Positions 16,265 through 20,795 of a stretch of DNA of 64,000 nucleotides are shown piece by piece. The notes beneath the pieces are model-generated. The model saw nothing but the letters and a program-made list of their open reading frames with translations. It did no database searches and was not told the origin of the DNA. Position numbers and translations under genes: made by a program. Source of the stretch: Nitrosarchaeum koreense MY1 (lineage in GTDB: Archaea > Thermoproteota > Nitrososphaeria > Nitrososphaerales > Nitrosopumilaceae); assembly GCF_000220175.1 (NCBI RefSeq), contig NZ_AFPU01000001.1, forward strand, positions 372,001 through 436,000, read 5' to 3'. Positions within the stretch are counted from its first letter, which is position 1. Every line of letters begins with the position of its first letter.

Positions 16265-16447
16265 TCAATTTTTCTTGCCTCTGGCTCTTGTTCTCAAAAC
16301 CGCTTTACAACAAATACATCGAGTATCGTCCAGTGACAAAAATATACCACAAAAAGTACACCTTTTTTGTCCAATTTCATATCTGATCTTATTTGGAACT
16401 GGTTCTGCTTTATGCATCTGGCAAATTCCTTTACATGTTCTACCCAT
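16265..16447 (-). CDS. Small double zinc-knuckle protein, 60 aa
   Basis: The protein starts MGRTCKGICQMHKAEP and continues with RYEIGQKRCTFCGIFLSLDD and CICCKAVLRTR, two C-x2-C knuckles followed by a basic tail. This is a recurrent thaumarchaeal family of unknown function, probably nucleic-acid or protein binding. Its ATG overlaps the stop of a 16-codon upstream ORF (TAATG), and a GCACTAGT box lies about 90 bases upstream. Confidence 0.75.
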   Translation of the reverse strand: MGRTCKGICQMHKAEPVPNKIRYEIGQKRCTFCGIFLSLDDTRCICCKAVLRTRARGKKN

Positions 16448-16536: not shown

Positions 16537-16544
16537 ACTAGTGC
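16537..16544 (-). promoter_or_regulatory. GCACTAGT box, site 1
   Basis: ACTAGTGC on the plus strand (TTAGCACTAGTC read on the minus strand). It lies between the 3' end of the CarH-like gene and the minus-strand zinc-protein unit, just upstream of that unit's TATA-like element. Same core as the sites near 17.4, 17.5 and 19.8 kb. Confidence 0.6.
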
Positions 16545-16566
16545 TAATTTTTAATTATGTTGTTTT

Positions 16567-17409
16567 TTATGTCGTTCTGATAATCTTTGGAATTTCATCC
16601 AAATTTACATCCGGAATAACGTTGGCATTAAATTTATGAGTTTTTTCAGATTGAAATGCAAATCCGCCTACTAATATTGGAATGCTATATTGATCTTTTA
16701 TTTTTTTGACTAATCTTTGACCTGCTGATATGTTGTCTTCCAAAGTTATTGAAACCAATACTATGTCTGGTTTGTTATATTCAATAAAACTAAGTATTGA
16801 TTCTGTGGGTATTGATGTTCCTATGTTGTATACTTTAAATCCCTTTATTGAAAGATAAGTCTCTAACACATCACATCCTAAATGATGCTCTTCTCCAAGT
16901 GGAACACATACTAGAATTTTCTTTTTGTTTGTATTACTTGATACTTTATCCATTATGATTTTAACTAGTGTTTGTGCAACATTACTTGCAACATGTTCTG
17001 TTGCAATGCTGATTGTATTGTTTGCCCAATCTTCTCCTATTTTATACATCACTGGTCTTAAAATCTTATCAAAAAAGTCAGCTGGATCAAAAATCTTCAT
17101 ATATTCTTCATAAATTTTTACAGATGATTGAATATCTCCCTCAGTTAATTTTTTGTAAAGTGCTTGCTTTGATTTTTTTGTTGATTCCTCTCTTTTTGTT
17201 ATATCTTTTGGATTATGTGATGCCAAAACCGCTAAAATCTTTGGATCATTTCTATAGTCTAGTGGTATGTCATCTTTAACTACTTCTGATGCTTTTCCTA
17301 AATATTTTACAATTTCTTGTTTTGATGTATTTTTTTTAGAATCCCAGACACTTTTTACTAAATATAGATAATTATCTGATTTTACTTTTTTAGCCCTAAT
17401 GTATACCAT
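16567..17409 (-). CDS. CarH/LitR-like cobalamin-binding (photo)receptor
   Basis: The 280-residue protein (from the ATG at 17409; the frame opens at 17430) has a C-terminal B12-binding Rossmann domain with E-x-H-x-x-G (EEHHLG, residues 173-178) and a helical cap domain containing W128 and, after nine residues, E138-H139 (W-x9-EH). That pair is the signature of adenosylcobalamin photoreceptors of the CarH/LitR group. The usual MerR domain is absent; instead residues 1-85 form a basic domain (YIRAKKVK, YLYLVKSVW, IVKYLGK) resembling N-terminal parts of some transposases, possibly DNA-binding. Boxes with core TAGCACTAG lie in its own promoter. A corrinoid methyltransferase subunit is a less likely alternative because of the W-x9-EH pair and the neighbours. 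Confidence 0.82.
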   Translation of the reverse strand: MVYIRAKKVKSDNYLYLVKSVWDSKKNTSKQEIVKYLGKASEVVKDDIPLDYRNDPKILAVLASHNPKDITKREESTKKSKQALYKKLTEGDIQSSVKIYEEYMKIFDPADFFDKILRPVMYKIGEDWANNTISIATEHVASNVAQTLVKIIMDKVSSNTNKKKILVCVPLGEEHHLGCDVLETYLSIKGFKVYNIGTSIPTESILSFIEYNKPDIVLVSITLEDNISAGQRLVKKIKDQYSIPILVGGFAFQSEKTHKFNANVIPDVNLDEIPKIIRTT

Positions 17410-17426
17410 GTAAATTTTTATTATAT

Positions 17427-17466
17427 GCACTATTTAATTAATGCTAACTTTTACATCTAGTGCTAA
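17427..17466 (-). promoter_or_regulatory. Autoregulatory box cluster of the CarH-like gene
   Basis: On the minus strand: TTAGCACTAG (17457-17466), TTAGCA (17442-17447) and an inverted TAGTGC (17427-17432). They lie just downstream of a TATA-like GGTATAAAAA (about 17469-17478) and before the ATG at 17409, so a bound protein would block transcription start. This suggests autorepression. Confidence 0.6.
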
Positions 17467-17532
17467 ATTTTTTATACCTTAAATGAAATTAGCCTTGTTT
17501 TGAAACATATTTTCGATTTTTATTAGTATTTG

Positions 17533-17559
17533 GCACTAGTCATTTACTGTAGCACTAGT
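17533..17559 (+). promoter_or_regulatory. Two direct GCACTAGT boxes before the SDR gene
   Basis: GCACTAGT at 17533-17540 and again at 17552-17559, start to start 19 bp, about two helical turns. The second runs directly into TTTAAATAAT, a possible TATA element for the SDR gene at 17663. Each half is part of the self-complementary core ACTAGT. Confidence 0.65.
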
Positions 17560-17662
17560 TTAAATAATTAATTTGATTAAGCGTTTTTATGCACTTTTTC
17601 TATGATTTGCAGTTATCTTATTTGAAAATAGGTGTATCAAGTAATCTCAAATTAAATAAATC

Positions 17663-19042
17663 ATGAATCAAAAAATAGGTCATCCTACATCTTCTGGATT
17701 CGCTTCTTATTCCATATTAGTTACGGGTGCTACTGGATTTATTGGTTCTAGGTTAATCTCGACATTAGCTTCTTCTGGTTTTACTATTAAGGGGATGAGT
17801 AGGAGAAAGCTTTCTGATACACATAATGTAAAGTACGTCCAGGCTGATGTTTTTGATGTTGAGCAATTAGAAAAAGCAATGATTGGAATTGATATTGTCT
17901 ATTACCTTCTCCATTCAATGGAAGGAGATAAGGAACATTGGAGGGAATTTGCAGCAAGAGAGCGAATTCAAGCTCAAAATTTTCTCAAAGCTGCTACCAA
18001 AGCTAATGTGAAAAGAATAATCTATCTTGGTGGGTTAGTAAATGACAGTTTGGAATTATCCCCTCACATGCAGAGCAGAAAAGAAGTTGGTGAAATACTT
18101 GCTTCTGGTGGTATTCCTGTAACTCAATTACGAGCATCTTTGATCATAGGTGCCCAAGGAGGTTCATATGCAATGCTTCGATATCTTGTAGAACGATTAC
18201 GAATTATGGTTACACCGTCATGGGTAAAATCACTTGCACAACCTATTGCGGTTGATGATGTTATAAAATATCTTGTAGGTTGTATGAGTCATCTTGAAAC
18301 AAGTGGTAAAATCTATGAAATTGGAGGACCAGATAAAATGACGTATGAAGAATTAATGCGTGTTTACTCTGCTTATCTAAATAAAAATCTCTTTGTAATC
18401 CAAATTCCTTTTCTAACAACTAGGCTTTCATCGTATTGGGTGGATCTAATTACTCCTGTAAAGGCTTCTCTAGCACGCCCATTGATAGATAGTTTAGTTC
18501 ATGATACAGTCGTAAATGACGATTCGATTACTAAGATTATCCCAATTCAATTAAAATCAGTTAGAGAATCCATTGATATTGCAACAAAAGAGATGAGAGA
18601 AAATCCTCCCGAAATAAATCATAGAGAAGAAAAAACTGGCTTTAAAATAAATCAAAAACTCTTACTTGGTTCCCTAACTGTGATGGCAATAATTGGAACT
18701 ACGCATTATTGGCTTGATGATCGGCCTGAAGTTTATACGCCAATTTGGCTTTTAGCTGGAATTATTTGGTATGCTGGAATTGTATCTGCAATTATTTTTG
18801 TTAATAGTAAAACTAGATTGGGATTTATGATCAGCGGTGTTTTATCTTGGATAACTCTGATTTTTTGGTCACTTGATAACTTCAATCTTGTTTTTAATAC
18901 TTCTATATTGGCTTCACCTCCAAATGAAATGTTCGCTTTAAGGAATTTTATAGGACTTGCTGTTGTATCGATTGCAATAATTGCATCTCATAATACTTTT
19001 CACAAGGTCATTGATTATCAAAACAAAGGGAAACCTGTTTAG
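17663..19042 (+). CDS. SDR (YbjT/NmrA-like) protein with C-terminal membrane domain
   Basis: The 459-residue protein has an N-terminal NAD(P)-binding Rossmann domain (ILVTGATGFIGSRL, residues about 19-32), a YYLLHSMEG active-site region and SDR core to about residue 310. The last 125 residues contain four predicted transmembrane helices. SDR proteins of this COG0702 type occur in bacterial LitR/CarH light-regulated clusters. Two GCACTAGT boxes precede it. Its substrate is unknown; a role in membrane-lipid or quinone redox chemistry is possible. Confidence 0.8.
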   Translation: MNQKIGHPTSSGFASYSILVTGATGFIGSRLISTLASSGFTIKGMSRRKLSDTHNVKYVQADVFDVEQLEKAMIGIDIVYYLLHSMEGDKEHWREFAARERIQAQNFLKAATKANVKRIIYLGGLVNDSLELSPHMQSRKEVGEILASGGIPVTQLRASLIIGAQGGSYAMLRYLVERLRIMVTPSWVKSLAQPIAVDDVIKYLVGCMSHLETSGKIYEIGGPDKMTYEELMRVYSAYLNKNLFVIQIPFLTTRLSSYWVDLITPVKASLARPLIDSLVHDTVVNDDSITKIIPIQLKSVRESIDIATKEMRENPPEINHREEKTGFKINQKLLLGSLTVMAIIGTTHYWLDDRPEVYTPIWLLAGIIWYAGIVSAIIFVNSKTRLGFMISGVLSWITLIFWSLDNFNLVFNTSILASPPNEMFALRNFIGLAVVSIAIIASHNTFHKVIDYQNKGKPV

Positions 19043-19208
19043 ATTTTTTAATTATTAATAATCTCCGTATCTATAATAAAACATGGAATAACTTGATTAG
19101 AGTTTTTTAATGCATAAATTAATCCTGTATTGTCTTCTAATCTTAAATCTCGACAAAATACAAATAGAAATTTATTATATTTTGACATTTGATATTATCT
19201 TAATTACG

Positions 19209-19754
19209 TTATTCATCCTCTTTGATATTTGTTGGTTGAAATATTGATCTATGTTCAATATCTGAATATAACAAAAAATATGTTTGACTTGCAAGATATG
19301 TATCATCACAACGATAAGTAATAGGGCTTATCTCTAAGAGAATCTGACCTATGGTTTTTTTACCCTCCCTAAATTGATCTAAATTATTCAAAAATGTTCT
19401 TTTTTCATTTTGATCTAAATGTTTTAAAAAATAACCAAAAATATGCATGATTACATTAGAATGTGTTCTTACTGTTGGTTTTTTATCCATTGCGAGTTTT
19501 AGATGATTCTCATACTCTTGTAATAATTCTGAAAATGGTATTTTTCTATGACTTGCAACAATATTTCCTAATTTTTTTAACTCTACTTGATCATGTGCCA
19601 TTATCATGAATTTGTTGGCAGTGTGAAACGCTAACATGTTTTTGAATTTATTTGAACTTTTTACATCTTCAAATCTTTGTATCACATAATCTGATATGTC
19701 TTTTTCAGATATTTTGCAATCTTTATCATTAAAGTATGGATTTAGTTTATTCAC
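19209..19754 (-). CDS. DUF1722 (YbgA-like) protein
   Basis: The 181-residue protein matches the DUF1722 pattern: FHTANKFMIMAHDQ near the start, then LGNIVA, an EYENHLKLAM helix, THSNVIMHIFGYF (the conserved N-V-x-x-H-x-x-G-Y-F) and the ITYRCDDTYLASQTYF tail. In bacteria this family is often adjacent to or fused with DNA photolyase, as with ybgA next to phr in E. coli, and is found in light-induced regulons. The start is GTG, about 25 bases after TATTTAAGC, so leaderless. It is divergent from the secreted-protein gene, with GCACTAGT-type boxes between them. Confidence 0.8.
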   Translation of the reverse strand: MNKLNPYFNDKDCKISEKDISDYVIQRFEDVKSSNKFKNMLAFHTANKFMIMAHDQVELKKLGNIVASHRKIPFSELLQEYENHLKLAMDKKPTVRTHSNVIMHIFGYFLKHLDQNEKRTFLNNLDQFREGKKTIGQILLEISPITYRCDDTYLASQTYFLLYSDIEHRSIFQPTNIKEDE

Positions 19755-19808
19755 TTTTTTTATTTTTGTTTCATTGCTTAAATAACCAATTTCATTTTTT
19801 TCCTATTG

Positions 19809-19867
19809 GCACTAGTCTAAATTTCTCTTTTCTTAGGAGTTAGCACTATATGGAAATTTAGCACCAT
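19809..19867 (+). promoter_or_regulatory. Box cluster between DUF1722 and secreted-protein genes
   Basis: GCACTAGT at 19809-19816, TTAGCACTAT around 19841-19849 and TTTAGCACCA around 19857-19866. The last one directly precedes a TATA-like CTTAAATAT. The cluster sits in the divergent promoter region and could control both genes. Confidence 0.6.
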
Positions 19868-19898
19868 CTTAAATATGATAACTGCTAAAAAATCAATA

Positions 19899-20795
19899 AT
19901 GAAAACAACAATTACCATCATAACTGCAATTATTTTGGTTGGTTCAACTACATTTGCTAGTGCAGAAGGAGTTCCAGCATGGATAAAAAATAATGCAGGA
20001 TGGTGGGCAGATGGTACAATATCTGAATCTGAATTCATTCAAGGAATACAATTTTTGATAAAAGAAAATGTAATTGTAATTCCTCCAACTACTATGTCTG
20101 CAGAAAAATCTCAATCAGTTCCTGAATGGATAAAAAATAATGCAGGATGGTGGGCAGATGGAACAATTACAGATAAAGAATTTGTCAATGGTATTCAGCA
20201 TTTGATAAAAACCGGAGTGATTTCAGTTTCTGCTGAAATTAAATCTCCTGAATCTCTACCTGTTTCATCCGATGATTCAAAACTTGCATCACTTGAAGCA
20301 GAATTAGAAAAATGCGCCGAAATCAAACAGGCATATCCTAGATTAAATTGTGAAAGAACCGCAAAACATGCAATCGAAGCTTACACAATAATTGCAAATG
20401 GACAATCATACCATGTAGGTCCTCTAGTTTATTATTGGACAGGTCTAGACACTGAAGGAAATTCATTTGAAATATCTGAAAGTGGGCAAGCTATTTTATC
20501 CATAAGAATTTTAGCTGTAAACACTAGTAATGACAATGTTTCTATGATGTGTACTGGTCCTGCAGTTTGTAACTATGATGTTTGGAATGGCGATAAAGCA
20601 TTCAAGTATTCTGGAATGGATTTTACAAATGGACAAATTGTCGTAAAACCTGGTACCTCTGAAATATTCAACATGTTATTTGGACCAAACATTGGATATG
20701 GTGGAACTACATTTGAATATGATTCATCTAAGGAATATTTCTTTAGAATATCTGAACCATATGGCAAGATGTCTATTCCTTTAGGACTACCATAG
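19899..20795 (+). CDS. Secreted protein with WIKNNAGWWADG repeats
   Basis: From the second ATG the protein has a typical signal peptide (MKTTITIITAIILVGSTTF, cleaved after ASA). Two near-identical modules with WIKNNAGWWADGTI follow, a repeat recurrent in thaumarchaeal secreted proteins. A short coil and a C-terminal beta-sandwich domain (about residues 170-298, with C-x4-C in MMCTGPAVC) complete it. An upstream in-frame ATG at 19875 gives eight more residues, but the TATA-like CTTAAATAT near 19868 fits the 19899 start. Function is unknown; its operators link it to the CarH-like gene. Confidence 0.75.
   Translation: MKTTITIITAIILVGSTTFASAEGVPAWIKNNAGWWADGTISESEFIQGIQFLIKENVIVIPPTTMSAEKSQSVPEWIKNNAGWWADGTITDKEFVNGIQHLIKTGVISVSAEIKSPESLPVSSDDSKLASLEAELEKCAEIKQAYPRLNCERTAKHAIEAYTIIANGQSYHVGPLVYYWTGLDTEGNSFEISESGQAILSIRILAVNTSNDNVSMMCTGPAVCNYDVWNGDKAFKYSGMDFTNGQIVVKPGTSEIFNMLFGPNIGYGGTTFEYDSSKEYFFRISEPYGKMSIPLGLP

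Follow-up and report, generated by a model that had tools for sequence, protein, structure and literature searches.

A candidate adenosylcobalamin photoreceptor-regulator with a new N-terminal domain in ammonia-oxidising archaea

Gene content and conservation of the locus

The window analysed here is a stretch of 64,000 nucleotides from the genome of Nitrosarchaeum koreense MY1, and all coordinates refer to it. An open reading frame on the reverse strand (16567-17409, with ATG at 17409 and a possible in-frame GTG start at 17430) encodes a putative B12-dependent light-responsive regulator of 280 residues. It is flanked by a divergent gene for an NAD(P)-binding SDR of the NmrA/epimerase type (17663-19042, forward strand). 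Beyond the SDR lie a photolyase remnant in the form of a 46-codon N-terminal stub (19048-19188, reverse strand), a DUF1722 gene related to YbgA/RudS (19209-19754, reverse strand; PMC11417400), and a gene for a predicted secreted protein of family F3 (19875-20795, forward strand). At the position of the stub several close relatives carry an intact photolyase gene, and in others (loci L031, L034 and L039) the gene is fully lost. Photolyases are known from surface and freshwater thaumarchaea (PMC9239080, PMC10232715).

From 104 relatives of the regulator in named genomes the best 80, which belong to Nitrosarchaeum, Nitrosopumilus, Nitrosotenuis, Nitrosopelagicus and further relatives, were used as a set of 80 loci (1.08 Mb). 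The SDR was the family most frequently co-located with the regulator gene (56 loci), followed by DUF1722 (49), the F3 secreted protein (48), TFB (45), SRPBCC (44), an FAD amine oxidase/CrtI-like family (42), a 120-aa family (38), a BtuF-like family (15), the Nre repair protein (14) and photolyase (12). In locus L041 the photolyase gene directly follows the regulator gene on the same strand, and in distant families (L253, L256, L268 and L269) the SDR gene adjoins the regulator gene directly upstream, also on the same strand. No methyltransferase family was found among the recurrent neighbours.

The same genes co-occur with the regulator at the genome level. Among 61 relatives, photolyase was present in 8/16 genomes with the regulator and 0/45 without it (p 4e-6), the SDR in 11/16 versus 3/45, and DUF1722 in 10/16 versus 1/45, where the tests ignore shared ancestry, so that p-values overstate independence, as does synteny among close relatives.

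Some further neighbours were observed. The TFB gene lies near the regulator in loci L147-L226, and also in L255, L256 and L265; it may possibly encode a dedicated initiation factor, by analogy with the sigma factor LitS beside LitR in Streptomyces. The BtuF-like gene (Peripla_BP_2, family F16), found about 1.8 kb from the regulator, is possibly cobalamin-related. In distant families (L257, L259, L262, L263, L264, L268 and L269) a small predicted membrane protein of about 155-160 aa, with a motif like SEIPSWRKWGLLGVFEWHEN, recurs beside the regulator.

The B12-binding domain

The regulator contains a helical cap (residues 81-156; 16942-17169, reverse strand) with G125xxW128 and E138-H139, and a Rossmann-like B12-binding fold (residues 160-258; 16636-16932, reverse strand) with G172xxH175 and G197xxxP201, in which H175 is the predicted lower cobalt ligand. 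Pfam placed B12-binding_2 at residues 82-152 (E 2e-12) and B12-binding at residues 164-255 (E 1e-13). A reading of the DNA from its letters alone had pointed out W-x9-EH (W128, E138-H139) and E173-x-H175-x-x-G178, all of which were found exactly as described, and had proposed a B12-photoreceptor-like protein with a CarH-type domain, in line with the searches reported here. The top NCBIfam model was CarH (E 1.1e-17), with a score of 64 bits over residues 77-268 only, which misses the curated cut-off of 400 bits; pyl_corrinoid and corrinoid methyltransferase models ranked behind it (2.9e-13). The CarH model also matched 15/15 aligned orthologs.

Structural comparisons gave the same picture. Photocobilins and CarH were the top matches when the PDB was searched with the protein sequence. 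The AlphaFold2 model (pLDDT 88) was closest to photocobilin and CarH structures in Foldseek (E 1e-13 to 1e-11), and against the B12 domain of TtCarH it gave an E-value of about 1e-12, a target TM-score of up to 0.86 and an rmsd of about 2.7 Å.

The published signature of light-responsive cobalamin-binding domains, as defined with SignatureFinder, consists of GxxW, EH, GxxH and GxxxP, and has been validated experimentally in CarH-like proteins and photocobilins (PMC11796333). All four elements are found in the regulator (G125/W128, E138/H139, G172/H175 and G197/P201). W128, E138, H139, G172, H175 and P201 are kept in 16/16 aligned orthologs, with G197 replaced by A or S in some. Furthermore, GxxW..EH..GxxH is kept in 78/78 complete close orthologs, drawn from the best 80 of the 104 relatives, and also in distant orthologs from other families. 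With W128, E138, H139 and H175 invariant in the first set and the three elements in the second, the motif lies far beyond chance.

Since B12-binding folds are held in common and the pyl_corrinoid profile also matches (E 3e-13), the protein might instead be a corrinoid methyltransferase subunit or part of another B12 enzyme. We regard this as very improbable. The CarH profile scores better, W and EH are present, and the neighbourhood is free of recurrent methyltransferase families. Archaeal corrinoid and MetH homologs retrieved in the same search have F or Y at the W column and VL, VM or LI at the EH columns, and in a tree of B12 domains they branch as a clade of their own (support 1.0), whereas the regulator family groups with CarH and AerR (0.96). 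An alignment of the cap motif with corrinoid methyltransferase subunits, named beforehand as the outcome that would speak against a CarH-type protein, was thus not what we found.

Another explanation is that AdoCbl is bound but that the protein senses B12 status, or redox or oxidative stress, light not being the physiological signal. Thaumarchaea both make and need AdoCbl, a PduO-type adenosyltransferase is encoded in the N. koreense MY1 genome (a search for CbiJ gave no match and is uninformative), a BtuF-like gene occurs near the regulator in the 15 loci counted above, and the regulator gene is also found in large-genome, probably soil, lineages. This explanation is nevertheless unlikely, as the invariant W and EH are a mark of light-responsive domains that is missing from B12 enzymes, and the strongest partners of the regulator are photolyase, SDR, DUF1722 and the FAD oxidoreductase.

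Two observations on related proteins were made in passing. Three paralogs, L266:5549-6415(-), L267:5402-6265(-) and L272:6157-7017(-), keep the N-terminal domain and GxxH and have lost W and EH; they carry another upstream motif, roughly ACTCATCNAGGTGNGTAAT, and in L267 and L272 they adjoin photolyase and F10 genes. In another archaeal family (G049), an ORF with a TrmB-like HTH precedes one for a CarH-type B12 domain (GDLWASNAISVGDEH; L250:5672-6784(+), and also L018), and a fasciclin-like gene and a homolog of the SDR lie no more than about 4 kb away. This may be another B12 light system of archaea, independent of the first.

The N-terminal domain and the direct-repeat operator

Residues 1-80 (17170-17409, reverse strand) constitute a new N-terminal domain that presumably binds DNA. 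In the AlphaFold2 model, from which strands and helices were assigned, strands at residues 2-9, 12-23 and 28-39 are followed by helices, such that the region of about residues 1-55 is made up of three beta strands and a loop region, and the helices then run into the cap. The residues Y3, R5, K7, Y14, Y16, L17, V18, S20, W22, Q31, Y36, L37, G38, D47 and P49 are invariant in the aligned orthologs. Pfam gave no match for residues 1-80, and a fold search of the domain against the PDB revealed nothing similar (best E 1.6). Together with the AlphaFold2 model these searches show that a MerR-type winged helix is absent from the N-terminus, as the sequence-only reading had stated. That reading was also right in assigning a different domain to this end of the protein, but its span of residues 1-85 is better drawn at about 1-55 with helices leading into the cap. 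The transposase-like look that it had ascribed to the N-terminus found no support; there was no transposase profile among Pfam matches up to E 10, and no structure match.

The N-terminal domain is present in 135/350 Nitrososphaeria genomes, which span several families and include large-genome lineages, and it is nearly always part of an ORF of 280-320 residues. This breadth indicates that the fusion of the N-terminal and B12 domains is old and no recent accident; judged from the genome sequences, the regulator family is ancient in Nitrososphaeria. The domain was also seen without a B12 domain in short proteins of 136-148 aa (L248:866-1312(-) and L260:5498-5908(+)).

The candidate operator is a direct repeat with the consensus TTRGCAYTA(G/T) and a spacing of 19 bp. 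In the regulator's own promoter it reads TTAGCACTAG-N9-TTAGCATTAA (17438-17466, reverse strand) and runs into the TATA-like ATTAAATA (to 17431). In the divergent SDR promoter it reads TTGGCACTAG-N9-GTAGCACTAG (17530-17558, forward strand), followed by TTTAAATA (17559-17566). An operator-like pair with 18-bp spacing, TTAGCACTAT-N8-TTAGCACCAT (19840-19867, forward strand), lies ahead of the TTAAATA of the secreted-protein gene. Lone half-sites were found between the DUF1722 and secreted-protein genes (TTGGCACTAG; 19806-19815, forward strand), and directly after the regulator stop codon (TTAGCACTAG; 16538-16547, reverse strand), where a small ORF at 16265-16447(-) follows.

The paired site is strongly enriched in the 80 loci, with 272 occurrences compared with 4 in a reversed-sequence control. 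GCAYTA pairs were spaced by 19 bp in 45 cases, by 18 bp in 13, by 20 bp in 11 and by any other distance in at most 7, and the reversed control contained no GCAYTA pair at 19-bp spacing. A paired site precedes the regulator gene in 73/80 loci, the F3 secreted-protein gene in 43/80, the FAD oxidoreductase gene in 26/80 and the SDR gene in 20/80. In most loci 28-31 bp separate the end of the second half-site from the regulator start codon, and the half-site merges into a TATA-like element; the same arrangement of paired site and TATA is found ahead of orthologs from further families within the order. In pattern searches of whole genomes, the strict paired pattern occurred in 15/15 family genomes that carry the gene and in 1/22 that lack it (p 2e-9), a test that is partly circular because the regulator's own promoter counts toward it.

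The half-sites of the repeat are the GCACTAGT boxes that had been singled out from the letters alone. They do belong to a conserved element, but this element is the paired direct repeat; the single box is not special genome-wide. Lone GCACTAGT words number 49 in the genome against 18 in the reversed control, and were rejected as a genome-wide regulon as the majority lie within coding sequence, so that the regulon looks mainly local. A paired site at G000:C1:1251360 was likewise discarded as a distant target; degraded copies exist in relatives both with and without the gene, a distribution that suggests an unrelated conserved sequence.

The direct repeats could in principle be bound by another factor, for instance the neighbouring TFB, and be unconnected with the regulator. 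TFB is indeed often close by, but the paired site follows the regulator gene (the 15/15 versus 1/22 above), and stands ahead of it across families even at loci without a nearby TFB. We find this alternative improbable.

The position of the repeat also bears on the direction of control. Archaeal activators also use the position just upstream of TATA. With paired sites located directly upstream of TATA, and a TFB gene near the regulator in more than half of the 80 loci, the protein might be a light-responsive activator that recruits TFB/TBP from a site upstream of BRE/TATA and is switched by light in one direction or the other. We consider such an activator rather unlikely, since the merging of the second half-site into the TATA-like element favours occlusion, the operator is shared with the regulator's own gene, as in autorepression, and most of the CarH/LitR proteins that have been characterised repress in the dark (PMC9758184, PMC9304148).

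Proposed mode of action and comparison with known systems

The reading that we favour, with a probability of roughly three in four, is that the protein is an archaeal AdoCbl photoreceptor-regulator that would act in the manner of CarH/LitR, as a dark repressor, through a different DNA-contacting domain. From the protein and promoter sequences we infer AdoCbl binding, the light response, binding of DNA through the N-terminal domain, the oligomeric state and repression rather than activation. Synteny, co-occurrence and the conserved operator lend independent support to a light-response regulator. Points that weigh against the favoured reading are the low identity to CarH in the B12 domain, an N-terminal domain that resembles no recognised DNA-binding fold or family, and the absence of an intact photolyase from the N. 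koreense MY1 genome and from half of the genomes that carry the regulator gene. It is also likely, to a slightly lesser degree, that the family, spread across the class, is one of archaeal B12 photoreceptor-regulators whose DNA-binding domain is of a new type and which govern a light-protection regulon via direct repeats overlapping TATA.

According to the proposed mechanism, AdoCbl would in the dark be held between the Rossmann fold, with H175 as lower ligand, and the cap, with W128, E138 and H139 surrounding the adenosyl group. As a dimer or tetramer, the holo-protein would use its N-terminal beta-sheet domains to occupy both half-sites (TTRGCAYTA, 19 bp corresponding to two helical turns) against BRE/TATA. 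Bound in this way the regulator would bar TBP/TFB from its own promoter and the divergent SDR promoter, and in addition the photolyase/DUF1722, FAD-oxidoreductase/SRPBCC and secreted-protein promoters may be blocked. Light absorbed by AdoCbl (UV to green) would cleave the Co-C bond, whereupon the oligomer would rearrange and the genes would be derepressed.

Ammonia-oxidising archaea are abundant nitrifiers, many of them light-inhibited, and whether and how they sense light is the question addressed here. The CarH-type domain, the UV-repair neighbours and the conserved control site together indicate that these organisms probably have a light-controlled switch. In the open-access literature searched we found no description of a B12 photoreceptor, or of any photoreceptor, for ammonia-oxidising archaea, earlier annotation elsewhere being possible, and the SignatureFinder paper (PMC11796333) does not mention archaea in its main text. 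The regulator family offers a concrete candidate that can be expressed and for which cofactor, DNA site and target genes are predicted, so that light sensing in ammonia-oxidising archaea can be put directly to the test. If the favoured reading is true, B12 photoreception extends from bacterial MerR-type regulators to archaeal TBP/TFB promoters, and the N-terminal domain may serve green-light optogenetics as a new DNA-binding module.

Among known systems, the regulator shares with photocobilins (SasPcob and AbDPcob) the light-response signature, and these are the top-scoring solved structures for its B12 domain. Unlike them it has neither a C-terminal biliverdin domain nor a diguanylate cyclase; identity as a photocobilin was rejected, given that the regulator ends at residue 280 and its PDB match reaches only to about residue 255. 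AerR proteins fall in the same group of the B12-domain tree, but they are without EH, whereas the regulator keeps the whole motif. AerR is not known to carry its own DNA-binding domain. The archaeal paralogs without W and EH resemble CarA, in which W is lost; W-x9-EH has been proposed as the mark that tells CarH from CarA in myxobacteria (PMC9304148).

In Pseudomonas, class II LitR clusters (PplR/PmlR) contain phrB, short-chain dehydrogenase and FAD-dependent oxidoreductase genes (PMC9758184), and DUF1722/RudS occurs in light operons (PMC11417400). The archaeal loci are similar in their photolyase, SDR and FAD-oxidoreductase neighbours and in DUF1722. In contrast to the archaeal regulator, class II LitR are MerR proteins, and in P. 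mendocina a LOV protein passes the light signal to PmlR2.

The comparison with CarH and class I LitR of Thermus, Myxococcus and Bacillus extends to protein, operator and neighbours alike. In common are a B12 domain made up of cap and Rossmann fold that carries W-x9-EH and E-x-H, a direct-repeat operator at the promoter, and photolyase and NAD(P)-binding SDR genes close by. On Thermus pTT27, carH is accompanied by phr, UvsE and an NDUFA9-family SDR that matches the SDR of the window (E 4e-13, 25% identity). The B12 domains of the regulator and CarH are about 21-25% identical, and His132 of TtCarH, the upper ligand after light, corresponds to Ala129 in the regulator, although other validated receptors lack this His too. 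The direct repeats that make up CarH operators are tandem 11-bp units in Thermus and Bacillus (PMC9304148), whereas the archaeal repeats are 19 bp apart and lie at TATA promoters, and a new beta-rich N-terminal domain takes the place of the MerR winged helix. The protein has not been filed as CarH since it has no MerR domain and scores below the curated CarH cut-off. Plausibly it works like CarH; sensor core and kinds of partner genes are shared between the archaeal and bacterial systems, which differ in the DNA-contacting domain and the promoter machinery.
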